Below, in pieces: positions 18,786-63,875 of a DNA stretch of 64,000 nucleotides. The DNA comes from Bacteroidetes bacterium 43-16 (GTDB taxonomy: Bacteria > Bacteroidota > Bacteroidia > Chitinophagales > Chitinophagaceae). The position numbers and the translations under genes are program-made. The DNA lies in the NCBI GenBank assembly GCA_001897525.1, contig MKTB01000018.1, positions 1 through 64,000 of the forward strand, in the 5' to 3' direction. Numbering within the stretch: position 1 is the first letter of the stretch; every line of letters begins with the position of its first letter. The notes under the pieces are model-generated. The model had not been told where the DNA came from. It did not search any database and was given only the letters and a program-made list of their open reading frames with translations.

Positions 18786-20789
18786 ATGCAGGGAGAGGAC
18801 GATTTAAGAGGACTGGCCAAGATCATGGCTTTTATGCGTGCAGTAAGTATCCTGTTGATACTGATGCACCTTTATTGGTTTTGCCATAGTTTTTTTTATG
18901 ACCGGGGTTGGACATTGGAAGTGATCAATAAAATACTATTCAATTTTAACCGAACAGCAAGTCTATTTGAACATACCCTTTATACAAAAGTATTTGCACT
19001 GGTATTATTGGCTTTAAGCTGCTTGGGCACAAAAGGAGTGAAGACCGAAAAAATAACCTGGACTAAAATATATACAGCATTAGGCATTGGCCTTATCCTT
19101 TTTTTTCTAAATACCCCGTTCCTTAAACTATCACCTGAAATTGGCATATTCTTATACATCCTTACCATCTCATTAGGATATATCGCTCTTTTGATGGCCG
19201 GACTCTGGGTGAGCCGGTTACTCCGTACGAACCTTATGTCAGATGTTTTCAATAATGAAAACGAAAGCTTTCAGCAAGAAACCCAGGTGATGGAAAATGA
19301 ATATTCCGTCAACCTTCCAACAAAATTTTATTATAAAGGCAAGTGGAATAATGGCTGGATAAACATCGTCAATCCTTTTAGGGCATCTATTGTTTTAGGC
19401 ACACCAGGTTCCGGTAAATCATATGCTATTGTAAACAACTTTATCAAACAACAGATAGAAAAAGGGTTCGCTATGTACATTTACGACTTTAAATTCGATG
19501 ACCTTTCTACCATTGCCTATAATCACCTGTTAAAGCATACCGACAAGTATAAAGTAAAGCCTAAGTTTTACGTGATCAACTTTGATGACCCTAGACGTAG
19601 CCACAGATGCAACCCATTAAATGCTGAATTTATGACTGATATCTCCGATGCTTATGAAGCAGCATACACCATAATGTTAAACCTAAACAAGTCCTGGATA
19701 ACCAAGCAAGGTGATTTTTTTGTCGAGTCTCCAATAATTTTGTTGGCGGCAATTATCTGGTACCTGAAAATCTATGATAATGGGAAATATTGCACCTTTC
19801 CGCATGCCATTGAACTTTTAAACAAAAAATATTCAGACGTATTTACCATACTTACATCTTATCCCGAATTAGAAAATTATTTATCTCCCTTTATGGATGC
19901 CTGGATGGGGGGAGCACAAGACCAGTTGCAGGGACAGATTGCCTCAGCTAAAATCCCATTATCAAGAATGATTTCTCCACAGCTATATTGGGTAATGACG
20001 GGGGACGATTTTTCATTGGATATCAATAATCCAAAAGAACCCAAGATCTTATGCGTGGGCAATAATCCGGATCGGCAGAATATTTACTCCGCTGCGCTCG
20101 GATTATATAATTCCCGAATTGTAAAGCTCATCAACAAAAAAGGACAATTGAAGAGTTCGGTAATCATAGATGAGTTGCCAACGATCTATTTTAGGGGACT
20201 AGATAATTTAATTGCAACTGCCAGATCTAATAAAGTATCTGTATGCTTGGGTTTTCAGGATTTTTCGCAGCTAACACGGGATTACGGCGATAAAGAAAGC
20301 AAAGTCATCCAAAATACTGTGGGGAATATTTTCTCAGGACAGGTCGTGGGCGAAACGGCAAAGAACCTGAGTGAGCGATTTGGGAAAGTATTACAGAAGC
20401 GACAAAGTCTGACGATAAACCGAAATGATAAATCCACTTCAATTTCAACGCAATTAGATAGCCTGATACCTGCTTCCAAAATTTCAACATTAACCCAGGG
20501 CATATTTGTTGGTGCAGTGGCCGATAATTATGATGAGCGAATTGAACAAAAAATCTTCCATGCGGAAATTGTTGTAGATAATGAAAAAGTAGCAACAGAA
20601 ACCAAAGCTTATAAAAAGATTCCGCAGATTTTGAAATTCCAGGATGAAGAAGGAGAGGATAATATGAAGATGGTAATTGATGCAAATTACCGACAAATAA
20701 AACTAGATATTAGCATGATCATAGCAAAGGAAACAGAGCGAATCAATAATGATCCAAATCTTCAACATTTAGCGCAAAAAAACAATTGA
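18786..20789 (+). CDS. mobC: MobC, VirD4/TraG-type coupling protein
   Basis: This 667-aa protein should link the relaxosome to the mating channel. Four hydrophobic helices fill the first 140 residues. A Walker A motif GTPGSGKSYA lies near residue 206 and a Walker B strand SSVIIDELPTIYF near residue 460, followed by the AAA motif region TARSNKVSVCLGFQDFSQL. Length and order fit Bacteroidota MobC/TraG-like coupling proteins. It is normally next to mobB but is here displaced by an 8-kb cargo block, and it has its own upstream spacer of 180 bp. Confidence 0.92.
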   Translation: MQGEDDLRGLAKIMAFMRAVSILLILMHLYWFCHSFFYDRGWTLEVINKILFNFNRTASLFEHTLYTKVFALVLLALSCLGTKGVKTEKITWTKIYTALGIGLILFFLNTPFLKLSPEIGIFLYILTISLGYIALLMAGLWVSRLLRTNLMSDVFNNENESFQQETQVMENEYSVNLPTKFYYKGKWNNGWINIVNPFRASIVLGTPGSGKSYAIVNNFIKQQIEKGFAMYIYDFKFDDLSTIAYNHLLKHTDKYKVKPKFYVINFDDPRRSHRCNPLNAEFMTDISDAYEAAYTIMLNLNKSWITKQGDFFVESPIILLAAIIWYLKIYDNGKYCTFPHAIELLNKKYSDVFTILTSYPELENYLSPFMDAWMGGAQDQLQGQIASAKIPLSRMISPQLYWVMTGDDFSLDINNPKEPKILCVGNNPDRQNIYSAALGLYNSRIVKLINKKGQLKSSVIIDELPTIYFRGLDNLIATARSNKVSVCLGFQDFSQLTRDYGDKESKVIQNTVGNIFSGQVVGETAKNLSERFGKVLQKRQSLTINRNDKSTSISTQLDSLIPASKISTLTQGIFVGAVADNYDERIEQKIFHAEIVVDNEKVATETKAYKKIPQILKFQDEEGEDNMKMVIDANYRQIKLDISMIIAKETERINNDPNLQHLAQKNN

Positions 20790-47959: not shown

Positions 47960-48796
47960 TTATTTCATATCAGTTTCATCCATTCTTTTATTTAAAGCAT
48001 TTATAACCTCATCCATAAACAATGTACGGCTTCCTTGGCGAATTCGAATGTTTTGAAAAACACGATAATACTTTCCTGTGCTAACATTAAAAATATATTC
48101 CAACGCTTCAATAATTTGTGCTACAGATGCATTTCCGTTGTTAATGATGCCAGCGGATTGCAGGCCATAAGCTAATTCTATTAATGCAGCCTTACGTCCT
48201 GTCCACACTAATTGACGTGGCAATGTTGACGGATCTGTATTGCTATTTGAGCTAAGCCTTTCAATCTTTTTTCCCAGGTGGTCAATGACTAATTCATAGG
48301 ATATAAGTTTAGCTAATTCTGCGCTGGCTGGCGTAGAATAATTTTCATCAAGATCTAAATCTGTCTGAATAAAATCAAAACTGTCGCTCGATCTAACAAA
48401 TAAGAGATGATCTCCACTATCGAAATTAGAGCGCATATAATGCAAAAAGATTTGATTTCTACTTGCCAGGACTGAATAATGGTTAGACGATCTTCTATAA
48501 TACTTGGCCAACAATCTTTTTTCAGAAACTAAAGGTTTTTGAACTTCGACCTGTATCAGCTCTTTGAAGTACATTAATCTGGATTGGAATCGAGGCTTAA
48601 TATCCTTAAAGAATTCAATTTCCTCTTTCTCATCAGAAAATTGATAGTCTAAAATGAAAGCTTTTAATTTTCTACTAATTTCAATGGTTTCGTGGTAACA
48701 TGTTTTGTAATAATCAAAGCCTACAATTCCACTATTGGAAATCTCTTGAATTGATAATTGCATCTTTTGATACAGCTCTTTAGTAAACTTTCTCAT
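47960..48796 (-). CDS. rteC: RteC-like regulator of conjugative transposon excision
   Basis: A 278-aa protein resembling RteC of CTnDOT. The N-terminal half is helical (RKLKAFILDYQFSDEKEEIE near residue 40). The conserved C-terminal domain (about 185-275) has LVWTGRKAALIELAYGLQSA, FNVSTGKYYRVFQNIRIRQG and a final ALNKRMDETD. RteC activates the excision operon by binding an inverted repeat upstream of it. Here no RteA/RteB pair is visible nearby. The gene is 15 kb from the topB/HTH module with the RHS locus between, which suggests that locus is element cargo. Confidence 0.82.
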   Translation of the reverse strand: MRKFTKELYQKMQLSIQEISNSGIVGFDYYKTCYHETIEISRKLKAFILDYQFSDEKEEIEFFKDIKPRFQSRLMYFKELIQVEVQKPLVSEKRLLAKYYRRSSNHYSVLASRNQIFLHYMRSNFDSGDHLLFVRSSDSFDFIQTDLDLDENYSTPASAELAKLISYELVIDHLGKKIERLSSNSNTDPSTLPRQLVWTGRKAALIELAYGLQSAGIINNGNASVAQIIEALEYIFNVSTGKYYRVFQNIRIRQGSRTLFMDEVINALNKRMDETDMK

Positions 48797-49371: not shown

Positions 49372-52143
49372 ATGAAATTGAATTTATATCCACAGATCAT
49401 TTTTCGTACTCCAAAATTCTCATTGGAAGAGAAACTGCAAGACTGCTGGGAGGAATTGAAGTCCAGTATTTCAGAATCTTCCCCTTATTTTTTTAGTATT
49501 GTTAAAAATGTCAAGGTTGAACAGTTGAAAAGTTTGCCGTTCAATATCCAATTTACAATATGGAAATATTTTAATAGAGCAAAGCATCGATCAACTCCTT
49601 TTGGAACCTTTGCTGCGGTATCGGTCTGCCCTGTAGGTCAGACAAATAAGGAAGGGATTGTAAATGTTGACCGTAAGCTAAAAGTGCACCGGTTCGCCGA
49701 TTGGAAAAGCAAAGAACATATCGAATTTGACTTCCAGGCGATTTTGCTTAAGGACGCAGAATTGTTCACCAATAGTACTTACTACCCGTTTCTGGATCAT
49801 ATCAGGTATATAAGCTTTAACGACGGCAAGTTTGTTATCTCAGAAGTTGAACCTGATGATTTCATGTGGGCACTTTTGAAAATTTGTGCAAAGCCCACTC
49901 CAATCTATAAAATAAGAGAACAGTTGTTGCCGCTTTGTGAAGATGAGGAGGATTTATTGGAAAAATTGGAAGCATTAATCGGTCTTCAGTTAATTTTTAC
50001 CAGCCTAGATGCCAATATTACTGGTCAGGATTATTTTGAAAGAATGGAGTTATCAAATTCCGGGTCTGAAATTCAATACATAATTTCTGAAAGGGACTGC
50101 ATTGGGGGAGTTTTTCCACAAAAAATATTGCAACACGTAGAGGAGATGTACCATTTTTTGGCCAGGAATGCTGCCGTCACCGAAAATGAAAGATTGAATG
50201 CGTTTGTCACACGGTTCAGGCAAAAATATGAAAGTCAGGAAATTCCTATAATGGTAGCCTTAGATCCCGAAATAGGCATTGGATATGCGAATATGGAAGA
50301 ATCAGATGACACAGACGAATTTATTTTGAAACTTTCATCCAATAAAAACGGTAATCAACATGATCACTTAACGATTAAAAAGCAATTATTAAATTCGCTT
50401 TCAGTAGATAATGGAACGGTTTATTTAGACAAATTGGCCTTAACAGATAAGTTTGCAAAACTCATAATCTTTCCCAATACATTCAATTTCCTCTTTTCTG
50501 AAGTAGACGGTTTGGTCGTTGTTGAACATATCGGCGGAGTGACGGCCACCGCTCTGGCCGGCAGGTTCACGCTAGCCAGCGAACCTATCCAATCTTTCGC
50601 TAAGGAAATCGTAAAAATTGAGCAACTGGCTAATCCTGGAGTACTTTTCTTCGATCTGGCCTATACTGGGGAAGCGGAAGTCGATAATGTGAACCGCAGG
50701 AGCCACATCTATGATTATCAGCTTTCTCTTTTCAACTTTGATACCTCAGATACTCCACTGACGGCTAATGATATTATGGTGTCCATAAAAGACAACCAGG
50801 TAATCTTAAGAAGTGAGTCGATGAATATAAGACTGGTTCCTCGGCTTTCCTCGGCTTATAATCATAGTAGATCTGACCTTCCAATTTTCCGCATTTTATG
50901 TGACCTGCAGGATCAAGGTCTCTTATGCAATTTCCTGGTCAAGCCGGATCAGCATTTCCCCGAATTCAACCAATATCCCAGAATACAATTTAAAAATATT
51001 ATATTATCACCAAGGAAGTGGCGCATAACAACCGAAAATCTATCAAACTTTAATCAATACTTGGTGAATAATAAAATTGCCAAAGATATCCGCGTCGGAG
51101 TCGATGACCAGATGCTATATTTTAACCTTCATGAAGATAACGATCTAAAAATGTTGATACATTTTGTGAAAACCAAAAAAGAATTACTGATAGAAGAAGC
51201 TTTTATACCTGAAAGATGCAGGGTAAAAGACAAGAAAGGTAATGGATTTGCTGCGCAATATATGGCTACTTATTATCATCGGGAACAAATTTACGAACCT
51301 TATCGTATCGCCGAAGATCCAAAGTGCGAAAGCCAGCGATGTTTCCTTCCTGGTCAGGATTGGTTGTATTTTGAAATATTTTGCCACCCTGGGCAAATGG
51401 ATAACCTACTATGTGGAGCGATACATCAATTCATTAACCAGCATGAAGACAGCCTCAATAAGTGGTTTTTTATCAGGTACGATGAAGGCGGTCCACATAT
51501 CCGCTTACGCCTGAAACCTGATAGTCCTCTTGACAATAACCATTTCCTAAATAAGATTATGGCACTGTTAAAACCTTATTTTGATCAAGGAACGGTTTCC
51601 GATATAAGCCTTCGTGCTTATGTTCGTGAACTCGAAAGATACGGTCCTGAATTAATAGATGACATCGAAAGCCACTTCGCGAACGACAGTAAAATAGTAT
51701 TAGGTATATTAGAGAACGACTTCAGTATACAACATCGGTATACCTGGTCTGTTTTACTATTTGAGAAAATTCTTGATCTAGGCATCGAGGGAATTGGGAA
51801 TGTCGGCTATTTTACACAAACCATATTGCAGTCTTTGCAGAACGAGCATAAAATCAGCGCTTCAGACTTTAAACAGTTGAACAAAGAATATAAAGATTTT
51901 TCGACTGCAGCCACCTCTAGAATTGATAGCAAAGCATTGGATGCTTTAGTAGACTCTTTTAGCATAATCCTAGATAAAGGACTAGAAGAGAGACGGAATA
52001 ATTTGTTGATTGATCTGTTCCACATGCATATCAATAGACTATTCCCGTCCTATCAGCGTACACATGAAATGGTCATTTATTATTACCTGGACAAGATGGA
52101 AAAAACAGCCATTTCCAAACGAAAAGAACCGGCAGCTATTTAA
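49372..52143 (+). CDS. lanB: full-length LanB-type lanthipeptide dehydratase
   Basis: A 923-aa enzyme of the class I LanB family. It should use glutamyl-tRNA to activate Ser and Thr residues of a precursor peptide and then eliminate glutamate to give dehydroalanine and dehydrobutyrine. The N-terminal glutamylation domain (1-650) contains NRAKHRSTPFGTFA near residue 70, matching the conserved RSTPFGLFAG region. The C-terminal elimination domain (about 660-905) has WLYFEIFCHPGQMDNLLCGA and KWFFIRYDEGGPHIRLRLK, the typical thiopeptide-type signature. Its 3' end overlaps the response regulator on the other strand by eight bases. No LanC cyclase follows. The precursor candidate is 1.9 kb downstream. 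Confidence 0.9.
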   Translation: MKLNLYPQIIFRTPKFSLEEKLQDCWEELKSSISESSPYFFSIVKNVKVEQLKSLPFNIQFTIWKYFNRAKHRSTPFGTFAAVSVCPVGQTNKEGIVNVDRKLKVHRFADWKSKEHIEFDFQAILLKDAELFTNSTYYPFLDHIRYISFNDGKFVISEVEPDDFMWALLKICAKPTPIYKIREQLLPLCEDEEDLLEKLEALIGLQLIFTSLDANITGQDYFERMELSNSGSEIQYIISERDCIGGVFPQKILQHVEEMYHFLARNAAVTENERLNAFVTRFRQKYESQEIPIMVALDPEIGIGYANMEESDDTDEFILKLSSNKNGNQHDHLTIKKQLLNSLSVDNGTVYLDKLALTDKFAKLIIFPNTFNFLFSEVDGLVVVEHIGGVTATALAGRFTLASEPIQSFAKEIVKIEQLANPGVLFFDLAYTGEAEVDNVNRRSHIYDYQLSLFNFDTSDTPLTANDIMVSIKDNQVILRSESMNIRLVPRLSSAYNHSRSDLPIFRILCDLQDQGLLCNFLVKPDQHFPEFNQYPRIQFKNIILSPRKWRITTENLSNFNQYLVNNKIAKDIRVGVDDQMLYFNLHEDNDLKMLIHFVKTKKELLIEEAFIPERCRVKDKKGNGFAAQYMATYYHREQIYEPYRIAEDPKCESQRCFLPGQDWLYFEIFCHPGQMDNLLCGAIHQFINQHEDSLNKWFFIRYDEGGPHIRLRLKPDSPLDNNHFLNKIMALLKPYFDQGTVSDISLRAYVRELERYGPELIDDIESHFANDSKIVLGILENDFSIQHRYTWSVLLFEKILDLGIEGIGNVGYFTQTILQSLQNEHKISASDFKQLNKEYKDFSTAATSRIDSKALDALVDSFSIILDKGLEERRNNLLIDLFHMHINRLFPSYQRTHEMVIYYYLDKMEKTAISKRKEPAAI

Positions 52144-52864
52144 GCTCCTGTACACTATTTAATTTTTGGATAAATTGGGTTCTGAAGTGTTTACTAACGG
52201 GTATTTTGGCGCCTCCTGTCAAGGTAATTTCGTTTCCCATCAGGCTGGTCACATGGTTCACGTTTATGATAAAGCTTTTATGTACCTGGACAAAATGAGG
52301 TGATTGTATGGTTTCAATAACCTTACCCATACTCAGGTTAGTCAATATAAATTTGTCTATACCCTGGCTATACAATTTCACAAAATTACCACAGCCTTGA
52401 ATCACCTGTAAATCACTAATATTTACTTTTATGGTATTGCACCTGTTTACATCTTTCACAAAGATGGAATTAACCTCCGTTTTTACAATTGATTTTGAAA
52501 GCGCCATAGATCGCTTTACTTTCTCTATGCTATCCAGGAAGCGTATATATCGCACAGGTTTAAGTAGGTAGTCTGTAGCATCAAGCTCATAGGCATCGGC
52601 AGCATAATCCGTATATCCAGTCGTAAAAACAACACAGCACAGGTGCTTGATGGCCAAGGCTATTTCAATGCCACCGATACCCGGCATTTGTACGTCCAGG
52701 AAGCAGACATCTGGTTTTATTTCACCGGATTGGATCTTCGCTAAAGCGACAATTGGGTCTGATTCGTAACCCAGCAATCGCAACTCTTCATTGCGTTTAA
52801 CGTAGTCTATCATTAGTGAGGCCACATGTGACTCATCATCTACTATGTAACAAGCTATTTTCAT
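52136..52864 (-). CDS. LytTR-type response regulator
   Basis: A 242-aa regulator. The receiver domain has the acidic pair VDDE near residue 9, phospho-acceptor D57 in CFLDVQMPG, a conserved Thr in FTTGYTDYA, and Lys in LLKPVRY. A LytTR DNA-binding domain follows (about 130-238) with VQVHKSFIINVNHV and IPVSKHFRTQF. LytTR regulators often control peptide-antibiotic genes. Its start overlaps the kinase stop by four bases, a clear coupled pair, and its 3' end meets lanB head-on. Confidence 0.92.
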   Translation of the reverse strand: MKIACYIVDDESHVASLMIDYVKRNEELRLLGYESDPIVALAKIQSGEIKPDVCFLDVQMPGIGGIEIALAIKHLCCVVFTTGYTDYAADAYELDATDYLLKPVRYIRFLDSIEKVKRSMALSKSIVKTEVNSIFVKDVNRCNTIKVNISDLQVIQGCGNFVKLYSQGIDKFILTNLSMGKVIETIQSPHFVQVHKSFIINVNHVTSLMGNEITLTGGAKIPVSKHFRTQFIQKLNSVQELK

Positions 52865-53991
52865 AACGGTACTATAAGGTTAAGTTCAAAATTTTCATTG
52901 GTTTCTCGTATATCGAGGGTGTAATTGTTGGGGTAAAAATAATTGAGGCGGCTTTTTAGATTCTGCATTCCTATTCCTCCTTCACTCATCTTATTATCAG
53001 TGTACTTTCGGTTAGTTAGCTTTATGGATAAGGTATTGCTTTCTACGGCGACTTTAAGCTCGGCAGGATGCTCGGGGTCGTTCATAAGGCCGTGTTTGAA
53101 CAAATTTTCGGCCAGAGTCAGTATGATCTGTGGCGGGATGCACAACGCTTCGGTCTGTTCGGCTGCCGGCCGGGTGAATGTAAAATAACAATTATTCTCC
53201 CGTAGCTGTTGGGACATCGTAAAAAATAATTCAACAGTGTACAGCTCCCGTTCCAAGGTAATTTTATGGTCCGAAGGAAGCTCTGCCAGCAATAGCCGCA
53301 TCATATCCACCAGGTTAGAAATAACCACCTCTGCCTTAGCAGAAATTGGCTCCACTATTCGGTATACATATTGCAAGTTGTTGAACAGGAAGTGTGGATT
53401 GATCCGGGCATGTTCATAGGCAAGTTGAGATTCGAAGGCTTGCCTTTCCAGATCGTTTTGTCTTTTTATAATGTTGATCTCTTCCTTTTTCTTAAATATG
53501 GTATGTACAAAGAGCCAGTACATGGCACTTAAATTGAACAGCATAAAAGAACGCCAAATTGAATTTGTCAATGTCTTGTGGTGCGTCCTAAGAGATAGCT
53601 CACCAGTAAGGTGATACCTTGAAATATGATTGAATGCAATAAGCATAATTGTCGTCAGTAACATAGTTCCGCCAAAAACCATCATGGACCATACCTTGTT
53701 TTTGTTCCAAATATAATAGCCTGTGGGATAAACCTTATGAGCATAGAAATAAAATAGGAAAATGAACAGAGTATAATACGGTATATAATATCTTGCTGCA
53801 ATCGGCTCTCCGTTTATATAAATTACCATAATTTCAAGTAAAGTATAAATCAAGAATGCACAGACATGATAGGTGATTTTTCCATAAAATGGTAGAAATT
53901 TTATTTCATCCATGGTCGCCTTAACCTGAAAAAAGGGTGTGTTGTCATTTTTATGGGGTGCCTTGTCATTTAAATTTTTTATTGGTTCCAT
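52861..53991 (-). CDS. LytS-type sensor histidine kinase
   Basis: A 376-aa sensor kinase. Four hydrophobic helices fill residues 35-170. The His_kinase domain has the phospho-acceptor in ARINPHFLFNNLQYVY near residue 199, and the C-terminal ATPase N-box is seen as LAENLFKHGLMNDPE near 300 with a glycine loop GGIGMQNLKSRL near 345. It signals to the LytTR regulator, which follows by four-base overlap. The putative lanthipeptide precursor gene starts only 46 bases away on the opposite strand, so the two share a promoter region. Confidence 0.9.
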   Translation of the reverse strand: MEPIKNLNDKAPHKNDNTPFFQVKATMDEIKFLPFYGKITYHVCAFLIYTLLEIMVIYINGEPIAARYYIPYYTLFIFLFYFYAHKVYPTGYYIWNKNKVWSMMVFGGTMLLTTIMLIAFNHISRYHLTGELSLRTHHKTLTNSIWRSFMLFNLSAMYWLFVHTIFKKKEEINIIKRQNDLERQAFESQLAYEHARINPHFLFNNLQYVYRIVEPISAKAEVVISNLVDMMRLLLAELPSDHKITLERELYTVELFFTMSQQLRENNCYFTFTRPAAEQTEALCIPPQIILTLAENLFKHGLMNDPEHPAELKVAVESNTLSIKLTNRKYTDNKMSEGGIGMQNLKSRLNYFYPNNYTLDIRETNENFELNLIVPL

Positions 53992-54037: not shown

Positions 54038-54187
54038 ATGAAAATGAACAGTAAAAACTCAAAGTATCAGGTTAAGTCGGTATTCAGTTTATCCGCACAA
54101 AAAGCAACAGACAAAGAAAGTGGAAAATCAGTTCCAACTACAGGAACAGTAACATCCTTACCAACTACTTCAAGTTTCACTTGCTAA
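54038..54187 (+). CDS. lanA: putative class I lanthipeptide precursor peptide
   Basis: This 49-residue peptide starts MKMNSKNSKYQVKSVFSLSA and ends LPTTSSFTC. The first half is basic and holds VFSLSA, which resembles the FNLD box that LanB enzymes read in leader peptides. The second half has 12 Ser/Thr residues among its last 22 positions and a single Cys at the very end, the residues a LanB would dehydrate and a Cys could cross-link. It lies 46 bases from the kinase start and 1.9 kb from lanB. A TAnnTTTG box precedes it and a hairpin follows it. No cleavage site of known type is clear. Confidence 0.68.
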   Translation: MKMNSKNSKYQVKSVFSLSAQKATDKESGKSVPTTGTVTSLPTTSSFTC

Positions 54188-54456: not shown

Positions 54457-54771
54457 ATGGAGAACAATACGAATGCGGGGCAGATTAAAATGCCGGATAA
54501 CCAGAAACGATCCCAACGTTTAAAATCATTAATCGAAGAAACGGAACAACGACGGAAAGCAAGCAATAGAAAAATTCGCATATTAAAGAATAGAATTATT
54601 GTTTTATTTACTATTGGAGTTTTACTAACAGTCTTACCCGGCTTACTTGGCAAAAAGCTGACCTGTGAACAAATGGACACAGCTCCCTTTTACGAAAAAT
54701 GGCACTACTATACCCACCCTTTGATTGTTGACCCTTGTGATTCAACATCTCCTTTTTGGAGTCCAAAATAA
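54457..54771 (+). CDS. small membrane protein near the lanthipeptide genes
   Basis: A 104-aa protein with a charged, coiled-coil-prone N-terminus (residues 15-45), one membrane helix (48-65, IIVLFTIGVLLTVLPGLL), and a short C-terminal tail with two Cys (KLTCEQMDTAPF and VDPCDSTSPFW). I do not recognise a family. It might serve immunity or export for the peptide made next to it, but that rests on position only. Confidence 0.55.
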   Translation: MENNTNAGQIKMPDNQKRSQRLKSLIEETEQRRKASNRKIRILKNRIIVLFTIGVLLTVLPGLLGKKLTCEQMDTAPFYEKWHYYTHPLIVDPCDSTSPFWSPK

Positions 54772-54960: not shown

Positions 54961-55278
54961 ATGAGCAAATTAATATTTTCCGCTGCCGCTTTAATGCTGG
55001 CCACCACTTTCTCTTTTGCTGGTACTCCTGAAACTAAAGGAGAAGTGAAATCGACAGAACTATATGCACCACCCCCAACAACTTATACATACCATGTAAC
55101 TTCTGAGAATTTGGATGGAACTGTAAATTTTGCTTCTGGTCCTGCTTCGCAAAAATGTAATGGAAGCCAAAAGCTTTGTGAATGGCAATCGTCAGTTCCA
55201 ATGACATCTCCGCAAGATCCATTGGATATTGAGTCTAATTCGAATACTTTACCTGAAACAATCACAAGGCGCAATTAA
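54961..55278 (+). CDS. DUF6520-like small secreted protein
   Basis: A 105-aa protein with a signal peptide (MSKLIFSAAALMLATTFSFA, cleaved before GTPET) and a short mature chain with two Cys in SQKCNGSQKLCEWQ. This pattern fits the DUF6520 small secreted proteins common in Bacteroidota. I start at the ATG at 54961; a TTG upstream at 54922 would add 13 residues before the signal. Its function is unknown. It is convergent with the TlpA gene across a terminator. Confidence 0.68.
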   Translation: MSKLIFSAAALMLATTFSFAGTPETKGEVKSTELYAPPPTTYTYHVTSENLDGTVNFASGPASQKCNGSQKLCEWQSSVPMTSPQDPLDIESNSNTLPETITRRN

Positions 55279-55325: not shown

Positions 55326-56819
55326 TTATAGATACTCTTTAATCAGGTCTGACAGTAAAGCTGCATCATCCAGCCTATATGAATTATTGTCAATCACCAT
55401 TCCATCCTTATTAATTAAAATTGTTGAAGGCGTTTCATATAGACCTAAATCTTTATTTAATGGATGATGATTATTCAAACCATTGGTGAACAGATTTATA
55501 CCTTTAGGGTCAGCATAAGTATTTAAGTACAATGATTTTCGCCATGTCTCAAAATTCTTGTCAATATTTATAGTAATAATCTGAAATTTATTGTTGCCTT
55601 TAAATTCCTGATCAATTTTAGATAATACATTATTTCTATAAAGGATACATGCACCGCATCCGGTTCCCCAGATATCCAATAGAATCACTTTTCCTGAAAA
55701 ATTGGCTAAAGAGATGTTCCTTTTTAAAGTATCCACAAGAACATAGCTACTTACATTAATTTCTGACTTACTTTTTATATGTTTTAGCATGACTTTGTAG
55801 TAGTCACTATTTAAATGACTTTGAACAAAGTTATACAGTTCTTGATTTTTAGAAGAATAACCTGAAAGGTTTAGATAGGTGGCAAGAAGGACTTCGCTCA
55901 ACTTTCCACCAGTATTATTTACGATATCTTTTGCTACATCTATTTCCTGATATTCTTTACGTAGCTTTCCTAATATATAAAAAAGGTTCGTATAGAAATT
56001 AACTAAATTACCTGATGAGGCTAAGGCATCTTGATTATTCACAAATCTAGGAACAGGAAGATATCGTGCCCGTAAAACAATATCCAAAGAATCTTTAGAT
56101 GTTTGATTTAAGTTCGCTATGTCTATATTCAATAAAGGTCTTCTCACAAATTCAAAATCTATCATTTGAATATCAGTCTTAATAACTCCATAACTCAAAT
56201 TTGACATACTTTGTTTATTCCTTTCTAGGATTGTCAGAAGCTCATTTATTGTCTCAAGATCGTTGGGTTTACCTAATTGAAACTTATCATTTTCCCAATA
56301 CTGTTCGTTACGTTCCTCTCTTCTTTGCCATTGAATATTTCTATATGCTTTCTTTAGCTCATAAATGGTTTTGTACTTTGCTGCATTTATACCTTTAAAC
56401 GTTGTATCGAAATAATACTCTCTATTTTTTCGAACCAGAGGCTGATCTATATGGATGGATATGCTATCACCGCTTTCCCAGAACAGATTTGTAGCCAGCG
56501 CAGGATAATCAGCTTGATCCTCTTGTCTAGTCTTTACAATATCTATATATCCATATGGATATCTCTGCAAAATATTAAAGTGTGCAATACCATTTGTATC
56601 AACTATTGTTTCACTTTTTTCTGTGAATTTCAAACCATCATAGAAAATAACGGGGTTAAATTCAATAAAAATAGTATCTCCGGGTCTACTTTTTTCATAA
56701 TATATATCCATTTTGACACTATATAGCGAATCCTTAGAAAGTGCGTATGCATTCCCAAAAAAAGTTATGAAACTGAGTATTAATACTAGCTTTGCCTTGT
56801 AAATATGTTTTGTAGTCAT
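55326..56819 (-). CDS. TlpA-family thioredoxin-like protein
   Basis: A 497-aa exported protein. I start at the ATG giving MTTKHIYKAKLVLILSFITF, because the longer form overlaps susD. A signal peptide is followed by a 350-residue N-terminal region of unknown fold and a C-terminal thioredoxin domain. The active site is IWGTGCGACILY (CGAC, near residue 387), with a cis-Pro region ETPSTILINKDG. TlpA proteins reduce disulfides or handle peptide thiols in the periplasm. The gene is last in the sigma-FecR-SusC-SusD operon, one base after susD. Confidence 0.87.
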   Translation of the reverse strand: MTTKHIYKAKLVLILSFITFFGNAYALSKDSLYSVKMDIYYEKSRPGDTIFIEFNPVIFYDGLKFTEKSETIVDTNGIAHFNILQRYPYGYIDIVKTRQEDQADYPALATNLFWESGDSISIHIDQPLVRKNREYYFDTTFKGINAAKYKTIYELKKAYRNIQWQRREERNEQYWENDKFQLGKPNDLETINELLTILERNKQSMSNLSYGVIKTDIQMIDFEFVRRPLLNIDIANLNQTSKDSLDIVLRARYLPVPRFVNNQDALASSGNLVNFYTNLFYILGKLRKEYQEIDVAKDIVNNTGGKLSEVLLATYLNLSGYSSKNQELYNFVQSHLNSDYYKVMLKHIKSKSEINVSSYVLVDTLKRNISLANFSGKVILLDIWGTGCGACILYRNNVLSKIDQEFKGNNKFQIITINIDKNFETWRKSLYLNTYADPKGINLFTNGLNNHHPLNKDLGLYETPSTILINKDGMVIDNNSYRLDDAALLSDLIKEYL

Positions 56820-56820
56820 C

Positions 56821-58200
56821 TTATCGTTTGTTTTGTTCAATCCCACTTAAACTTATTTCTTTAATTGGTATTGGAAATATATACAAAGGATCATTTGGTG
56901 CTAATGAAATTTCGCTCCCATTTACAGTCCGCTTCATCGTTCTTTGAAATTCAGGTTCTAAATTCAGTCTCCTAAGATCCTCCCACCATATATTGGAAAA
57001 TCTGGGAAACTCTTTTGTACGCTCTAGAAAAATAATTTTAAGCAATTTTATCTTATCGTTCTCTTCAATAACCGGCGCTTCTCCGGTTATGTATCTATTT
57101 TTTAGAATAAGGTTTAAATCATCTTGCGCCTCTTGAATATTATTTAATCTTGCATAGCATTCTGACCGTATAAAATAGATTTCATTGGTGGAAATTCCTT
57201 GAAATAGATAACGGTCTCCGCTATAGCTGCCCACAAAATTTATTCGATCATCGGTTACATCAAAATAAAACGCTTTCCTTTTATCTTTCTCAGAATAACT
57301 TTCATAAAATGATGGTTCAACTTGTAAAATATCTCCTTTACCACTCCATTGGTTGCCAGTAAACCCCATAGCAAAAAAGATAATTTCCGGATTGTCAATT
57401 CCCAGATATGGAAATGCAAATGTGTTACTGCTAGAAACTAATTGCTCATTATTAAAATCTAATAGTTCATTTTTTACCTGCAATACAGCATTTGCATAAT
57501 CTATAGCCTCATTATAGTCCTGCATGATTAAATTTGTTTTCGCCAGCATTGCTAATGCAGATGTTTTACTCGCACGAGTATTGTACATTACTGTATTGGG
57601 TAAATTTTCAATTGCGAATTTGAGATCAGACAGGATGAGGTCATAAACTTGTTGAAGATTGGATCTCTTTTCAACCTGGTTTACGTTTGATGTAAGCCGA
57701 AGAGGTAAACCAAGCTCATGATTAGCGCTACCTTTCACATATGGTTTGCAAAATGTCTGGGAGAGATAATAGTATCCTACCGCTCTAAAGAAATGGGCCT
57801 GACCTTGTATAAATTTAACTTCATGGTTGCTCTCCATCTCCTTCACTCCATCAAGAACAAGATTGGCATTTTCTATCATTCGATAAAAAAAAGTCCAGTC
57901 AGATGATTGATCACTCTCGTAGTTGATCGTTTTTTTCCATGTATAGGCATCCTGGTCTTCTTGCAATAGCGAACCAAAATCTGCGTCAGAATATCTCACG
58001 TAATCTGTACAGATAATAGGAATGGAGCTAAAGCCTCGATTGAACACTATATCATTATCCAAAATAGCCTGCATATCTTTGATACTGCTTGGCACAACTA
58101 AATTCTTGCTCGGCTTTTCATTCAACCAATCCTTTGAACAGGAGATGTTGCAAAAAACGGTTGCGAGTAATATATAAAAAATTATTGTGTTAATTCTCAT
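56821..58200 (-). CDS. SusD/RagB-family outer-membrane lipoprotein
   Basis: A 459-aa lipoprotein (lipobox NISC, Cys21) of the SusD type. The family mark is the helical core with TPR-like pairs: GQAHFFRAVGYYYLSQTFCK near residue 132, and SALAMLAKTNLIMQDYNEAI near 215. It should cap the SusC channel and bind the ligand on the cell surface. It starts three bases after the SusC stop and is coupled with it. The substrate cannot be told from sequence; there are no adjacent glycoside hydrolases. Confidence 0.92.
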   Translation of the reverse strand: MRINTIIFYILLATVFCNISCSKDWLNEKPSKNLVVPSSIKDMQAILDNDIVFNRGFSSIPIICTDYVRYSDADFGSLLQEDQDAYTWKKTINYESDQSSDWTFFYRMIENANLVLDGVKEMESNHEVKFIQGQAHFFRAVGYYYLSQTFCKPYVKGSANHELGLPLRLTSNVNQVEKRSNLQQVYDLILSDLKFAIENLPNTVMYNTRASKTSALAMLAKTNLIMQDYNEAIDYANAVLQVKNELLDFNNEQLVSSSNTFAFPYLGIDNPEIIFFAMGFTGNQWSGKGDILQVEPSFYESYSEKDKRKAFYFDVTDDRINFVGSYSGDRYLFQGISTNEIYFIRSECYARLNNIQEAQDDLNLILKNRYITGEAPVIEENDKIKLLKIIFLERTKEFPRFSNIWWEDLRRLNLEPEFQRTMKRTVNGSEISLAPNDPLYIFPIPIKEISLSGIEQNKR

Positions 58201-58203
58201 AAC

Positions 58204-61200
58204 CTAAAATGTTGCGTTTATACCAAATGAGTAAGTCCTTGTTGCCGGATAACTTCCTGCAACCATCTGAGGGTCTAATCCTTCTTTGTTTTTCTTCCAT
58301 AAAATTGCCAGATTCTGAGCATAACCAAATGCAGAAACTTGAATACGATTATTTTTTAGCAGATCACCGAAGTCATAAGACAACCGTACATCTCTTAAAC
58401 GGATGTGATCTCCTTTTAAAATCCTAGCTTCAGAATACATATAGAAATTAGCCCGATTAGTATTAGCCGGATAAACTAATGATGGAACATTTGTAAATTC
58501 CTCATCACCGGTTTTTTGCCAGCGCTTTTCATAATCTGATGCTCCCTGGGCTTTCAGTTGATCTACATAATTGGTGGATGTTGATGGCTTCCGGAAAACA
58601 AAATCAAAGAAATAGGTAACATTAAATGATAAGGATAAGTCTTTATAAGCAAAATCGTTCCTTAAAGAACCAAATGACGTTGGAAGGAAGCTTCCCGAAT
58701 AAACAATATCATCATCGCCTAGCTTATTACGAAGTGTATTATAATCTTCACTCTTTTCATTATTGAGCCACCCTACAGGATTACCGTTCTCCGGGTTCAG
58801 TCCTGCCCATTTATAGGAATAGATTGCATTAAGCGGTTTTCCAACTTTCCCGCCCATTATAGATATATTCGTATATGGCTGGTCATATTTAACCACTTTG
58901 TCCTTAATTAGGCTGTATAACAGAGTAGCATCCCATTTAAAATCCCCACGAAATATCTTAGATGTAATATTGAGATCAATACCTTTTGTGTTTGTTTCTG
59001 CTGTATTGGCATAGTATGTGCTGAACCCTGTCTGATGGGGAAGGTCTGTTGGTTGGACAAGATCAATTCCCGATTTATTAAAGTACTCAATGGTTCCATG
59101 AAACAGATCATTTTTACTCCGAAAATCAATGCCCAGATTTAGTATCCTTACCCTTTCCCAACTTAGTTCGGCATTAGGTGCTGTCAAACCAGCAATCATC
59201 TGTGCCCCTTGATTATTTACAAAATATCTGCCGGTGAGCAAACCTGTTCCATTCTGGTAAGTATTGCCATTAAAACCAAAGCTTCCTCTTAACTTTACGA
59301 ATGGAAACAATTCAGATGAATAGAAATTTTCCTTGTTCAAATCCCATCCGGCTCCGATAGACCAGAGCGGAGAGAATTTATTATTTGCGTTCACACCAAA
59401 TAAATTAGCGCCATCTGTACGGACACTTGTAGTAAGTGTATATTTATCATTATAGCTATAGGATGCATTTGAGTAATAGGATACGAATCTATTTAAGAAA
59501 CCGGTGATATTACTGGTTGGCAATGGAATCCGGGAAGCTCCCGACGGACTTGTAGGAAATAATGCAGTATAATCAAGGGACATATAAGATGTGCCCAGTT
59601 GGTCATCGTAGCCAATTAAGTAGGTATTATTGCCCTCAGTCCTTAATTCCCTCGCTTCGTATCCAGCCAGTGCAAATAGTTTATGTTTATTTATCTGCTT
59701 TTCAAAGTTTAGCTGAGCCCTAAAATTCATTGATGTCCAATCCGTATTTACAAGATTGAGATTACCCCCATCCGGATAGTTGTTAACATAAGTTCCGGTA
59801 GTATTATCATAAGTACTAAAACGGTTATACATGTCCCTAACATAATAGGTTGCCGGGTTCCGGTAATTCCTTTCTTTGATCTTCTGCTGTTCTAGCTGAT
59901 AATGAAGGGATGCTGTTAGCGCTTGAATTATTTTATAGCTTCCACTGATACGCGCAAGTATACTGTTTGTTTTAGCTGTATTATCTGCTAACCTTAATTC
60001 GTCCAAAGGTCTGAATCTCCAGTCTCTGTATCCTTTTGTTTCTACTTCCATAAGATAGCTTTCAGCTAATTGGTAAAGTATGTCTAATGGCTTACCTTGT
60101 TCGTCAACTAATCTGCTGTAAGGAAAAATATTACCACTATACTTGGACCCTGCTACCGAATACTGGTTGAATTCATTGTTAATGTCCCTTTTACTCTGTA
60201 CATAATTAATACCGGTTGTTATTTCGAGATTTTTAATTGGGGAATATGTATTTAATGAATTAACTGAAAAGCGTTTAAATCCATTACGTACCAACTCATC
60301 CTGATTCTTGTCATATCCCACACTCAATCTGTAGGTCAGGTTTTCCGTTCCTCCCCGAAAGGCCATTGAATGTTGCTGTTTTACCGCATTTTGATAGATA
60401 TACTTTTTCATATCATCTCGGATGTCATAATTTCTAAGGAGTTCCAATTGAGCTTGACCTTGATCGGCGGTTAGTGCTCCTGACCGTACTTTAGCCATGA
60501 TCTGGACAGACGGACTAACTACAGGTCTGGTGCTTTTATTATTGATATCAGAGTTGAAATAACCTTTGTCAAATAGAAATTGTTCTACTTCAATAAAGCT
60601 CTTGGAGTCTAAAAATAACTTGTCATAAAACAGGTTAGGTTTTTCACCGACAGTGATATTGGATGTAATATCTACTTTCATTTTTTCATTCTTTTTCCCC
60701 TTTTTTGTAGTGATAACAATAACCCCATTTCCTGACTTTGCACCCCATATAGATGCAGATGAAGCGTCTTTTAATATTGTTACGCTTTCAATATCATTAG
60801 GATTGATACTCGAAATATCACCTTCAAATGGAAAATTGTCCAATACGATTAAAGGATTTGTCGAGGAATAAAAAGTACTTTCTCCCCGGATAGTAATAGG
60901 AGACCTTCTTTGATTTGGATTAGTCTGGATGCGATCTCCAATTAGATCATTGGTTTGAAATTGTAATCCAGGAACAATGCCATTGAGTCTGTCTAAGATG
61001 TTTGTGGATACCGAGCGGTTCAGCAATTTATTATCTATCTGAACATAGCTTCCAACCGCTCTCTCTTTTGGGATGGTTTGGTAGCCGGTATTAATAGCAT
61101 CTACGATTCCTAAGCCAATATTTGCTGGGCTCAGTTGAATTTGTCCGATCTCTTGTTCTGATATCAATACTTCCACAGTTTCGTAGCCTATCATTGTAAA

Positions 61201-61767
61201 AAGCAGTTGCTCCCCCTCCTGAACAGAAATTTCATAAAATCCTGACTGGTTGCTAATGGCTGTTAGATTACCTTTTGAAGAGGTTATGGTTACTCCAGCT
61301 AAGGGACTGCCATTCTGATCCACAACTCTTCCTGATTTTTTTGCAGGTTGTTTTTTCTGGGGTGTTGTATTTTCTTCTGGTCCTGCACTTGAATTTTGAC
61401 GGATAATAATACTCTTTCCTTTAATTTCGTAGTTAATCGTAGCAGGCTGATTTTTAAAGATTTCCTTTAAAGCCTGGACAATCGTAACATTTTTCAAATT
61501 GAGGTTGATGGCTCTGCCTTTAGCTAAGGTTTCCGAAGGGGCCATAATTGCATAATCTGTTTGCGCCCGTAGTTTTTTAATGACTTGCTCCAGGGATTCG
61601 TTTTTGGCAGACAAATTAATATCCTGTGCCTGTACTAATGTACTAGCCGTAAAAAGAGATACACAGAGTGTGAGTACCCTTAATGAGTGCGCATAGGAGG
61701 GAAGCTTCTGTTTGCTTTGCTGCAGGTTGAAAAACCTGCCTCCCATAGAATGATTTTTACCATTCAT
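58204..61767 (-). CDS. SusC/RagA TonB-dependent receptor with STN domain
   Basis: An 1187-aa outer-membrane receptor. It has a signal (to about residue 47), an N-terminal STN signalling domain (50-125, DINLSAKNESLEQVIKKLRA), a carboxypeptidase-like beta domain (145-220, VVDQNGSPLAGVTITSSKGN), a plug (about 225-350, including DASSASIWGAKSGNGVIVIT), and a 22-strand barrel ending GINATF. The STN domain touches a FecR anti-sigma, which is encoded just upstream. So uptake of the ligand should switch on this operon through the ECF sigma factor. Confidence 0.93.
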   Translation of the reverse strand: MNGKNHSMGGRFFNLQQSKQKLPSYAHSLRVLTLCVSLFTASTLVQAQDINLSAKNESLEQVIKKLRAQTDYAIMAPSETLAKGRAINLNLKNVTIVQALKEIFKNQPATINYEIKGKSIIIRQNSSAGPEENTTPQKKQPAKKSGRVVDQNGSPLAGVTITSSKGNLTAISNQSGFYEISVQEGEQLLFTMIGYETVEVLISEQEIGQIQLSPANIGLGIVDAINTGYQTIPKERAVGSYVQIDNKLLNRSVSTNILDRLNGIVPGLQFQTNDLIGDRIQTNPNQRRSPITIRGESTFYSSTNPLIVLDNFPFEGDISSINPNDIESVTILKDASSASIWGAKSGNGVIVITTKKGKKNEKMKVDITSNITVGEKPNLFYDKLFLDSKSFIEVEQFLFDKGYFNSDINNKSTRPVVSPSVQIMAKVRSGALTADQGQAQLELLRNYDIRDDMKKYIYQNAVKQQHSMAFRGGTENLTYRLSVGYDKNQDELVRNGFKRFSVNSLNTYSPIKNLEITTGINYVQSKRDINNEFNQYSVAGSKYSGNIFPYSRLVDEQGKPLDILYQLAESYLMEVETKGYRDWRFRPLDELRLADNTAKTNSILARISGSYKIIQALTASLHYQLEQQKIKERNYRNPATYYVRDMYNRFSTYDNTTGTYVNNYPDGGNLNLVNTDWTSMNFRAQLNFEKQINKHKLFALAGYEARELRTEGNNTYLIGYDDQLGTSYMSLDYTALFPTSPSGASRIPLPTSNITGFLNRFVSYYSNASYSYNDKYTLTTSVRTDGANLFGVNANNKFSPLWSIGAGWDLNKENFYSSELFPFVKLRGSFGFNGNTYQNGTGLLTGRYFVNNQGAQMIAGLTAPNAELSWERVRILNLGIDFRSKNDLFHGTIEYFNKSGIDLVQPTDLPHQTGFSTYYANTAETNTKGIDLNITSKIFRGDFKWDATLLYSLIKDKVVKYDQPYTNISIMGGKVGKPLNAIYSYKWAGLNPENGNPVGWLNNEKSEDYNTLRNKLGDDDIVYSGSFLPTSFGSLRNDFAYKDLSLSFNVTYFFDFVFRKPSTSTNYVDQLKAQGASDYEKRWQKTGDEEFTNVPSLVYPANTNRANFYMYSEARILKGDHIRLRDVRLSYDFGDLLKNNRIQVSAFGYAQNLAILWKKNKEGLDPQMVAGSYPATRTYSFGINATF

Positions 61768-61949: not shown

Positions 61950-63116
61950 TTACAGTTGTTTTACCGTTATCCTCCTTCCTTCGATTTTAAATGTTACGTT
62001 TTCAAAAGTTGAAATAGCTTCCAGTATTTCTGATAATTTGCGGTCTTTGGGAATCTCCATCAAAAATTGTTCTTTCGATAAATTAGAAGGATAAATGATC
62101 TCAACGTCATACCACCTTTCCAGATTTTTAAAGATTTGACCGAGCGTCATATTATTGAAAACAAATAGATTCTTTGACCATGCGATTGCTTCCTCAGCAT
62201 TAACTTGTCTGGTTTCAAATTTGTTTTTGTAAAACGTACTCTGCTGGCCCGGATTCAGGATTGCTTTTGCATTAGTCCCATTGGACGATAGCGCTACTTT
62301 ACCCTCCAATAAGGTAGTTTCAGTAACTTCTCCTGTATAAGACTTTATGTTAAAATGCGTTCCCAATACAGTAAGCAGTTGCCGGTCTGTTGTTTCCACT
62401 TTAAAGGGATGCTTTATATCTTTAGCTACTTCAAAGTATCCCTCTCCAATTAATTTTACCAGACGTATGCTATCATCAAAACGAACCGGATAAGTAATAC
62501 TTGAACCAGAGTTAAGGATTACTTTAGTGCCATCGCTTAATTTAAGTTCATAAAAACCTCCATTTGGAACATTTAGTGTTGCAGAACTTATTTTCTCAGT
62601 TTTTGAAATAAGGTTTCCATTATTATACGTTATGGCATTCGCTCCAATTTCAACTCCCAGACTACTGCTGTCTAATTGTATCTGTTGCCCATCCGAAAGG
62701 GTAAGGGTGGCTTTTGATGCACTGGGAGGGAGGACATCAGAACCATATATGCTGCTCAATTTTGTTGAACTTATTTCCTGTTTGGTCATCAAATAATACA
62801 TGGACACAAGTCCTATTCCGATCAAAAGTGCTGCTACAGTCGTCCATTTCTGCCATAATTTTTTAACCTTCTTATTGTTGCCAGTTTGGGCATATATGTT
62901 ATTCCAGCGATTATTGACAATGTTTTCTACTTGTTTATTTTCGGAATTACTGGTGTTTTCAGTTTCTGATTCCAGGTGATCGTGAATCAGCCGTGATAAC
63001 CATTCTTCATTCTCATTAATGCCAAAATAGTCATACAGCTCTTGTAGTTCTTCCACATTGGTCTCGCCATCTATATACTTGTAAAATAATTGCTTGATAT
63101 ATTTGTTGTCTTCCAT
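61950..63116 (-). CDS. FecR-family anti-sigma factor
   Basis: A 388-aa inner-membrane protein. A cytoplasmic N-terminal segment (1-85) is followed by one helix (WTTVAALLIGIGLVSMYYLM, about 86-105). A periplasmic FecR domain follows (about 180-280, with VNSGSSITYPVRF-like LNSGSSITYPVRFDDSIRLV and GEGYFEVAKDIKHPFKVET), then a C-terminal STN-contact domain (about 315-388). It holds the ECF sigma factor until the SusC receptor signals. It sits between the sigma and SusC genes, the standard order. Confidence 0.92.
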   Translation of the reverse strand: MEDNKYIKQLFYKYIDGETNVEELQELYDYFGINENEEWLSRLIHDHLESETENTSNSENKQVENIVNNRWNNIYAQTGNNKKVKKLWQKWTTVAALLIGIGLVSMYYLMTKQEISSTKLSSIYGSDVLPPSASKATLTLSDGQQIQLDSSSLGVEIGANAITYNNGNLISKTEKISSATLNVPNGGFYELKLSDGTKVILNSGSSITYPVRFDDSIRLVKLIGEGYFEVAKDIKHPFKVETTDRQLLTVLGTHFNIKSYTGEVTETTLLEGKVALSSNGTNAKAILNPGQQSTFYKNKFETRQVNAEEAIAWSKNLFVFNNMTLGQIFKNLERWYDVEIIYPSNLSKEQFLMEIPKDRKLSEILEAISTFENVTFKIEGRRITVKQL

Positions 63117-63284: not shown

Positions 63285-63875
63285 CTAATGTGTTACATCA
63301 AATAGGACAATGCAAAGAAAAAGATAGCTATGCGGTTGCAAATATTCACGCATCTTTTTTCCCGCTTCCTGGATCAAGCGATTGACCGCCGGTTTACTGA
63401 TCCCCAATCGTTCCTGTATCTCCTTATAAGATAGTCCTTCAATTTTGTAAAGAGAATAAACCTCTCTTTGTCGGGCTGGTAGCCTGGCAAGTGCCTGATC
63501 GATTGCAATTTGCATTTCCCTCTGGTCAACAAATCTGGAAACGCTATCAAATCCTTCTTCATTCGCAGGAAGTGACTCGAAATATATTTGGCGATGAAGG
63601 GCTTTGGCGAATTTATTTTTTGCCATATTCGAGGCTATCGTGTACAGATATCCACGTAACGACTGTGTGGTATCTATATCTGCTCTTCGTTCCCACACTT
63701 TTAGAAAAAGATCTTGTAATACATCTCCGGCAAGCTCTTCATCACGAAGTAGGTGTAACAACTTTACAGTAAGCTGGCGCGCATATTTGTTATAAAGCTG
63801 CTCAAAGGCGAAATGATCACCTTGCTTTAATTGCTGTAGCAATTCCTGCTCACTAAATTCCTCACGAGATTTCAT
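63285..63875 (-). CDS. RNA polymerase ECF-type sigma factor (RpoE-like)
   Basis: A 196-aa sigma factor. Region 2 is seen as FEQLYNKYARQLTVKLLHLL and VLQDLFLKVWERRADIDTTQ, and region 4 as LPARQREVYSLYKIEGLSYK plus the helix-turn-helix LGISKPAVNRLIQEAGKKM. The pairing with the downstream FecR and STN-bearing SusC is classical cell-surface signalling. The gene is separated from fecR by 168 bases containing a terminator-like hairpin. Confidence 0.93.
   Translation of the reverse strand: MKSREEFSEQELLQQLKQGDHFAFEQLYNKYARQLTVKLLHLLRDEELAGDVLQDLFLKVWERRADIDTTQSLRGYLYTIASNMAKNKFAKALHRQIYFESLPANEEGFDSVSRFVDQREMQIAIDQALARLPARQREVYSLYKIEGLSYKEIQERLGISKPAVNRLIQEAGKKMREYLQPHSYLFLCIVLFDVTH

Follow-up and report, generated by a model that had tools for sequence, protein, structure and literature searches.

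The stretch of DNA analysed here, 64,000 nt long and referred to as the window, carries at 54038..54187 on the forward strand a small ORF that is a real gene of a large unnamed peptide family. Its product is probably the precursor of a LanB-modified peptide pheromone that is read by the adjacent sensor kinase and is made without a dedicated cyclase. This conclusion was reached because a conserved enzyme, kinase core and regulator surround a patch, composed of the kinase sensor and the peptide core, that varies as a unit, as in the agr and ComQXPA systems. The variation was observed in close Pedobacter loci, and we infer that it extends to the window cassette; within the window, homology, position, LanB residues, the absence of LanC and exact direct repeats all point to the same reading. 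On balance we also favour the wider view that these peptides form an undescribed pheromone family of Gram-negative Bacteroidota, in which orphan LanBs make dehydropeptides of species-specific types and several channels, each with its own LytS/LytTR pair, share one LanB. Loci, genomes and the contigs or cassettes of the source genome are labelled L, G and C, respectively.

Gene content of the window

The ORF runs from ATG to TAA and lies exactly where the original prediction had placed a 49-codon Ser/Thr-rich peptide. Its translation (MKMNSKNSKYQVKSVFSLSAQKATDKESGKSVPTTGTVTSLPTTSSFTC) comprises a basic leader of approximately residues 1–20, with VFSLSA at residues 15–20, and a Ser/Thr-rich core, the boundary between the two being inferred from alignment. 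The composition described earlier was recovered, with 12 Ser/Thr among the last 22 residues and a sole Cys as the final residue. A likeness of VFSLSA to the FNLD box had also been proposed and was dropped, as F-x-L-D did not occur in any of the 137 distinct family peptides.

As anticipated, the peptide ORF is divergent from genes for a LytS-type sensor histidine kinase (52861..53991, reverse strand; PF06580), whose start is perhaps at 53913 (Met27), and a LytTR response regulator (52136..52864, reverse strand; PF00072 and PF04397). The full-length LanB dehydratase expected nearby is encoded at 49372..52143 on the forward strand (923 aa; PF04738 and PF14028), with the glutamylation and elimination residues present. 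On the other side of the peptide gene are an accessory 104-aa protein with one predicted membrane helix (54457..54771, forward strand), for which a similar-looking ORF occupies the same place in G240, and a small exported-looking protein (54961..55278, forward strand) with a weak match to DUF6520 (24.0 bits, under the 25.4 cut-off). These are followed on the reverse strand by a TlpA-like protein of thioredoxin fold that belongs with the neighbouring SusCD genes (55326..56846), a SusD-like protein (56821..58200), a SusC-like TonB-dependent receptor (58204..61767), a FecR-like protein (61950..63116) and a FecI-like ECF sigma factor (63285..63875). A YcaO cyclodehydratase, the mark of goadsporin-type azole dehydropeptides, was absent from the ten window proteins scanned.

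Several minor features of these neighbours were seen. Judged by eye, several window-type cassettes have, next to the peptide, a small exported-looking protein resembling that at 54961–55278 with its weak match to DUF6520. Pfam gave no match for the one-helix proteins at window 54457–54771 and L044 13953–14255, which come from two species and, on visual comparison, resemble each other C-terminally around PCDTT/PCDST; in the C5 cassette (L041 7669–7984) the membrane-helix protein appears to be split over two reading frames. An RteC-like gene (window 47960–48796) lies beside LanB, as it does in 13 of 91 module loci (11 of 86 distinct), and a YWFCY/TraG-type conjugation gene is present at 18786–20789 in the window. 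The cassette may therefore sit by a conjugative element.

Extent and conservation of the peptide family

Pfam and NCBIfam contained no family for the window peptide or ten relatives (11 scanned), and the sole weak NCBIfam match among family peptides, to HipB (E 0.058), was taken as chance. Used as a single query, the window peptide had no homologue at E 0.01 in the 293 other genomes of the GTDB family and found one paralogue in its own genome, at E 0.3 only. A single-sequence LanB scan of genome contigs likewise confirmed no relative, and a scan with an alignment of ten LanBs succeeded, giving 122 loci with a relative, of which the best 80 were used. Together with the window and ten stretches from its own and other genomes these make up 91 loci, five of them seen twice, leaving 86 distinct. 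An iterated, position-guided profile search (inclusion E 0.01) detected 147 peptide ORFs in 87 of the 91 loci, or 142 ORFs with 137 distinct sequences after de-duplication. A homologue was then present in 83 of the 86 distinct loci of the LanB clade, so that a peptide with no homologue near any lanB gene, the case that the original prediction had named against itself, is not what was seen. The three distinct loci with no match to the profile were L045, L048 and L157, and the genome of the last (G084) has peptides at L056 and L071, approximately 12 and 24 kb from LanB and each beside a PF06580 kinase.

Peptide-bearing taxa are soil Bacteroidota and include Pedobacter, Mucilaginibacter, Sphingobacterium, Taibaiella and Chitinophaga, among others, all within one LanB clade. 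Four full-length LanB genes are encoded in the source genome of the window (4.73 Mb; completeness rating 100 %), where three further such peptides were found in the same position beside the three further LanB genes. The presence of these same-place paralogues indicates that the window ORF is more than chance. Each LanB of this genome is accompanied by a convergent kinase and regulator and a peptide of 48–49 residues divergent from the kinase, followed by SusC, SusD and a thioredoxin-like gene. A profile built from nine peptides recovered all four at E 1e-17 to 1e-18; as all four are among its rows, these values are not independent. The family is not phylum-wide, since only 3 of 395 genomes in a phylum sample matched at E 0.001; in a sample of 294 genomes of the GTDB family, 18 matched at E 0.05, six of these below 1e-4.

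The family leader is basic, with a K(K/R)TxFx(F/Y)K-type motif, and 132 of 137 peptides fit a loose expression of it. It is often followed by DPT and then by a Ser/Thr-rich tail, and the mean Ser+Thr fraction is 0.32 in the last 24 residues versus 0.18 in the first 20. An LxLxKx5L leader motif is reported for Bacteroidetes LanAs in the accessible part of PMC7268733, and in our reading the family motif would be nearer to this than to the FNLD box. The peptide reading frame is under purifying selection in the relatives, with a pN/pS of 0.22 over 11 locus pairs in which no locus was reused (106 qualified; single pairs 0.04–0.58), the window itself having no relative close enough. Where peptides occur in tandem, the C-terminal 22 residues had a mean identity of 0.75 within loci (25 loci, ungapped) versus 0.23 between loci of the close Pedobacter group, and the first 16 residues 0.61 versus 0.54. 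Tandem copies thus mostly share a core, which suggests one amplified product rather than a library. A few family peptides are truncated copies; in L106 (14216–14601), truncated or disrupted tandem members lie among intact ones, which suggests turnover of the array.

The LanB enzyme and the distribution of LanC and cysteine

The window LanB matches NisB at E 4e-16. It has equivalents of NisB R83, R87, R464, R784, R786, E823, R826, H961, N965 and R966. The motif numbering of LanB residues in the accessible part of PMC3091789 agrees with the one used here. The NisB active-site equivalents were kept in 85 or 86 of the 86 module LanBs; given these residues and the presence of the peptide at 83 of 86 LanB loci, its assignment as LanB substrate is well supported. 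In a quick tree, midpoint-rooted for drawing, 85 module LanBs were split, with an SH-aLRT of 100, from 20 LanBs of greater length (998–1078 aa) that belong to the same GTDB family. An AlphaFold model of the LanB had a mean pLDDT of 79 and a pTM of 0.62, with domain placement uncertain, and a Foldseek search with it returned MadB, NisB and MibB at the top but with an rmsd of approximately 17 Å.

A tblastn search with five LanCs found none in the 91 module loci (flanks of up to 10 kb, shorter where a contig ended), whereas a LanC piece lay within 1.5 kb in 8 of 22 loci of the longer LanBs, used as a control. A LanC-like gene (PF05147) was absent from the source genome and from 32 of the 48 module genomes searched, which cover 48 of the 80 loci. 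Among the genomes checked outside these 48, none was found in G000, G240, G192 and G084; G225 and G101 have LanCs on contigs other than that of the module, and G067 and G275 have weaker, partial matches. For the genomes with a cassette of the window type, a LanC-like gene was present anywhere in 7 of 15 and absent in 8, the source genome included.

Most family peptides (107 of 137 distinct sequences) are Cys-less, which rules out a thioether ring as a product common to them all. The 30 with any Cys are unevenly distributed by cassette type: all 21 distinct window-type peptides have one, versus 8 of 107 and 1 of 9 in the other two types, and a Thr stands five positions ahead of the Cys in all nine window-type members examined. 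A single ring is therefore conceivable in the window branch, and the conserved thiol is likely to have a special role there, whether in a ring or not. The original prediction of a lanthipeptide precursor thus stands as far as a LanB-associated precursor with leader and core is concerned, and the lanthipeptide label is not established, with LanC lacking from the loci and the source genome and Cys from most peptides.

Linkage of peptide and kinase

The kinase and regulator, earlier taken as neighbours, appear to be key to the function of the peptide. A kinase was found in 81 of the 83 peptide loci, the exceptions being L108 and L112, where a peptide was present with no kinase match; in all 81 the nearest peptide was divergent from the kinase, with a median distance between starts of 144 bp. 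This held across three gene orders. In the window type (19 loci) the kinase and regulator form a pair and SusCD lies beyond; in most Pedobacter (56 loci) the peptide lies between kinase and regulator; and in P. hartonius, P. cryoconitis and others (8 loci) regulator, peptide, kinase and LanB stand in a row.

Some genomes have more peptides with a kinase than they have LanBs. P. ginsenosidimutans (G294) has at least six peptide–kinase pairs (L191, L193, L197, L199, L201 and L203), one LanB and no LanC, and P. borealis (G723) has four pairs, one of them with a kinase match that contains an internal stop codon, and two LanB-type genes. The pairs were counted among 30 kinase loci, comprising 16 of the 30 kinase matches of G294, mostly those nearest the query, and all 14 of G723. 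As pairs outnumber LanB genes, the peptide goes with the receptor, and a single LanB may modify more than one peptide.

Covariation of peptide core and kinase sensor in close Pedobacter loci

Among 36 close Pedobacter loci, mean identity was 0.91 for the regulator, 0.82 for the kinase core, 0.62 for LanB, 0.51 for the sensor and 0.37 for the peptide core. In these loci, core and sensor can diverge strongly with hardly any change in LanB, kinase core or regulator. Between L078 (P. ginsenosidimutans) and L110 (P. borealis), for example, LanB was 94 % identical, the regulator 100 % and the kinase core 95 %, with the sensor at 55 % and the peptide core at 41 %, while L086 and L079 had 99 % identity in the kinase core, 32 % in the sensor and 39 % in the peptide core. 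The reverse was seen between L078 and L098, where LanB was only 72 % identical but the sensor 85 % and the peptide core 83 %. An exception is L149, whose sensor is 72–76 % identical to those of eight loci with peptide cores at 28–55 %. At the DNA level, identity between L078 and L110 was 0.86–0.98 in LanB, 0.92–0.97 in the kinase-core part and 0.95–0.99 in the regulator, and fell to 0.54–0.79 over approximately 13450–14185, which covers the sensor-coding part, the intergenic region and the peptide; two intervals of the alignment had an identity of 0.11–0.13, where L110 has a second peptide copy.

The same pattern was apparent across pairs of the close group. Among pairs with LanB more than 85 % identical (n=24), mean core identity was 0.73 where the sensor was at least 70 % identical (8 pairs) and 0.38 otherwise (16 pairs); at a LanB identity of 85 % or less the corresponding means were 0.66 (39 pairs) and 0.35 (567 pairs). 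The partial rank correlation between core and sensor in the 36 loci was 0.286 (1 of 300 permutations as high), compared with −0.08 for core and kinase core (240 of 300), these permutation tests, like those that follow, ignoring relatedness. Correlations of the core with LanB (0.199; 3 of 300) and with the regulator (0.234; 7 of 300) were seen as well. When all 81 loci were taken together, core and sensor correlated weakly under full controls (0.086; 14 of 300), and the value for leader and LanB was 0.204 (1 of 300). The 45 loci that do not belong to the close Pedobacter group, among them the window, showed no covariation of core and sensor (partial r −0.011; 165 of 300).

Four control kinase pairs from G294 and G723 had identities in the N-terminal and kinase parts of 0.81 and 0.88, 0.57 and 1.00, 0.81 and 0.96, and 0.98 and 1.00, respectively. 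For the second of these (L209 and L206) no family peptide was found beside the kinase. This LytS-type kinase of Pedobacter (L209 1489–2514 and L206 1480–2514) is perhaps another variable receptor.

Direct repeats upstream of the peptide gene

The usual LytTR site consists of two 9-bp repeats 12 bp apart. An arrangement of this kind, TTGTCATTT-N12-TTGTCATTT, is present between the kinase and the peptide at 53942..53971 (forward strand; 21 bp from start to start) and is a putative LytTR operator; it is the only match in the genome with fewer than three mismatches. The repeats lie inside the kinase ORF as listed and would be intergenic if the kinase starts at Met27. In all three gene orders the score of the best 9-bp direct repeat ahead of the peptide gene peaked at a spacing of 21, with values out of 9 of 7.42 (19 loci), 7.23 (56 loci) and 8.88 (8 loci), versus 6.53, 6.68 and 7.00, respectively, for the best other spacing in the range 12–45. 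The best of spacings 21 and 22 exceeded the top of 60 shuffles in each arrangement, the loci being related and not independent. Control scores were 5.63 upstream of SusD, 5.91 in random stretches and 6.46 upstream of LanB, where a weak 21-bp signal was seen; upstream of the regulator the score was 7.05, in a stretch that overlaps the peptide region in Pedobacter. Among the cassettes of the source genome the repeats matched at 9 of 9 positions in the window and 8 of 9 in C10, and at 7 of 9 in C5 and C33, which is near the shuffled group mean of 6.3. A genome-wide regulon was rejected: 19 sites with up to three mismatches were found versus 48 for the reversed control, and only the exact site was used for this reason.

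Relation to known systems

Most known examples of peptide quorum sensing come from Firmicutes, and few ligands are known for the many LytS/LytTR pairs of Bacteroidota. The agr system (AgrBDCA) of Firmicutes also unites a precursor, a processing enzyme, a kinase and a LytTR regulator in one locus. Sensor and peptide are variable together between conserved flanks in agr as in the close Pedobacter loci, and agr likewise has a direct-repeat operator in a divergent promoter, which is putative here. It differs in that AgrB is a protease, whereas the module has a LanB dehydratase and a PF06580 LytS-type kinase and belongs to Gram-negative Bacteroidota; no sequence kinship is evident. In the ComQXPA system of Bacillus, as proposed here, a dedicated non-protease enzyme alters the peptide and the neighbouring kinase senses it, with strain-specific types, but ComQ prenylates Trp and the regulator is of the NarL type, unlike the LanB chemistry and LytTR regulator here. 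The nisin system (NisABTCIPRKFEG) shares the LanB family with its active-site residues and, on the reading preferred here, the sensing of a modified peptide by a two-component pair. NisRK is of the OmpR type, and the module loci differ from the nisin system in having no LanC or recognised transporter, protease or immunity genes and in their mostly Cys-less peptides.

Pinensins and PedA15, class I lanthipeptides of Bacteroidota, come with LanC and several Cys, unlike the module, whose LanB falls in a separate group. The LanB family is common to both, as is, in our reading, a leader akin to the LxLxKx5L motif; the PedA15 peptides are those of Pedobacter lusitanus treated in PMC12328550. In the accessible parts of these sources, the survey of more than 100,000 genomes in PMC7268733 began from proteins with a LanC domain, PMC3091789 started from a NisC screen and PMC10352776 found no LanB in Bacteroidales. 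Because the first of these mined LanC domains, LanC-less clusters would have been missed by design. The open-access literature, at the level of titles, abstract openings and top-ranked matches, showed no such system; Caetano 2020 and Bothwell 2021, both on Pedobacter lusitanus, may mention LanB-only clusters. In culturable Pedobacter species the module supplies candidates, at the level of genes, for the ligand, its modifying enzyme, the receptor and the operator. If the pheromone reading is true, LanB would also have a role without LanC, namely the making of dehydropeptide signals.

Proposed pathway and alternative explanations

In the pathway proposed for the pheromone, the leader would be bound by the neighbouring LanB, which, judging from the chemistry of its family, would dehydrate Ser and Thr of the core with glutamyl-tRNA. 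With no dedicated LanC the product would be a largely linear dehydropeptide, that of the window having at most one thioether, from its single Cys. The leader would be removed and the peptide exported by factors not recognised nearby. Detection of the core would then fall to the membrane part of the divergent LytS-type kinase; phosphate would pass to the LytTR regulator, and the regulator would bind the direct repeats of 21-bp spacing between the kinase and peptide genes and autoregulate both. Against this reading is the lack of a recognised exporter or leader protease in the module, for which no dedicated search was made, the one exception being a C39 ABC exporter beyond the C33 cassette. Also against it are the absence of covariation outside the close Pedobacter group, the correlation of the core with LanB and regulator within that group, the exception of L149, the two loci with a peptide and no kinase match, and the L209/L206 kinase pair, which varies N-terminally with no family peptide found beside it.

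The same LanB, with both active sites intact, would be expected of a class I lanthipeptide, in which the dehydrated core is closed by its single Cys into one (methyl)lanthionine, spontaneously or through a remote LanC, to give an antibiotic or a ringed signal. The invariant Cys of the window-type peptides, the Thr five residues before it and the LanC-like genes of seven window-type genomes are in favour of such a product, and the count of Cys by cassette type has raised the standing of a single ring and slightly lowered that of the pheromone. We nevertheless regard it as doubtful, as LanC is missing from the source genome, seven more of the 15 genomes of the type and all 91 loci, most of the family is Cys-less, and neither an immunity gene nor a dedicated exporter was recognised. 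The absence of recognised immunity and export genes from the module also weighs against an autoinducing antimicrobial, that is, a modified peptide that, like nisin, kills competitors and at the same time switches on its own cluster by way of the kinase. Antimicrobial activity is common among LanB products, and kinase and regulator are linked to the peptide here as NisRK is to nisin, but the several peptide–kinase pairs for a single LanB in one genome are not readily explained in this way and a sensor that varies between conserved flanks is more in keeping with signal specificity than with killing. Such a function is unlikely.

Pairs with no LanB in the 1.5-kb flanks examined (L193, L197, L199, L201 and L203), together with the distant G084 pairs at L056 and L071, are consistent with an unmodified peptide, either a conventional linear pheromone or a small kinase regulator, LanB having another substrate. 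The C-terminal enrichment in Ser/Thr, the dependence of leader distance on LanB distance and the occurrence of the peptide in nearly all LanB loci make this improbable. The peptide might, lastly, serve the neighbouring SusCD/TlpA/FecIR system as ligand or cargo, with the kinase pair regulating that system. Within the window type, SusC was found in 19 of 19 loci and SusD and the TlpA-like thioredoxin in 17 of 19 each, all with a Cys-containing peptide. In the other arrangements, however, SusC matched within the stretch examined in only 4 of 64 loci and the thioredoxin in 1 of 64, yet LanB, kinase, peptide and regulator were kept, and we consider this explanation very improbable.

The LanB-modified pheromone is thus the preferred reading for the family. 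It does not account for the conserved Cys, the thioredoxin and SusCD of the window type, which hint at an additional element, and the TlpA-like thioredoxin may act on the thiol of the peptide. Beyond the C33 cassette (L043 11746–18954) of the source genome lie an ABC exporter of the peptidase C39 kind, a protein with a SPASM domain and another with a weak match to an MvdD pre-ATP-grasp domain, and HlyD- and TolC-like ORFs can be seen there by eye. This stretch looks like a second RiPP cluster, of the grasp-with-spasm type.
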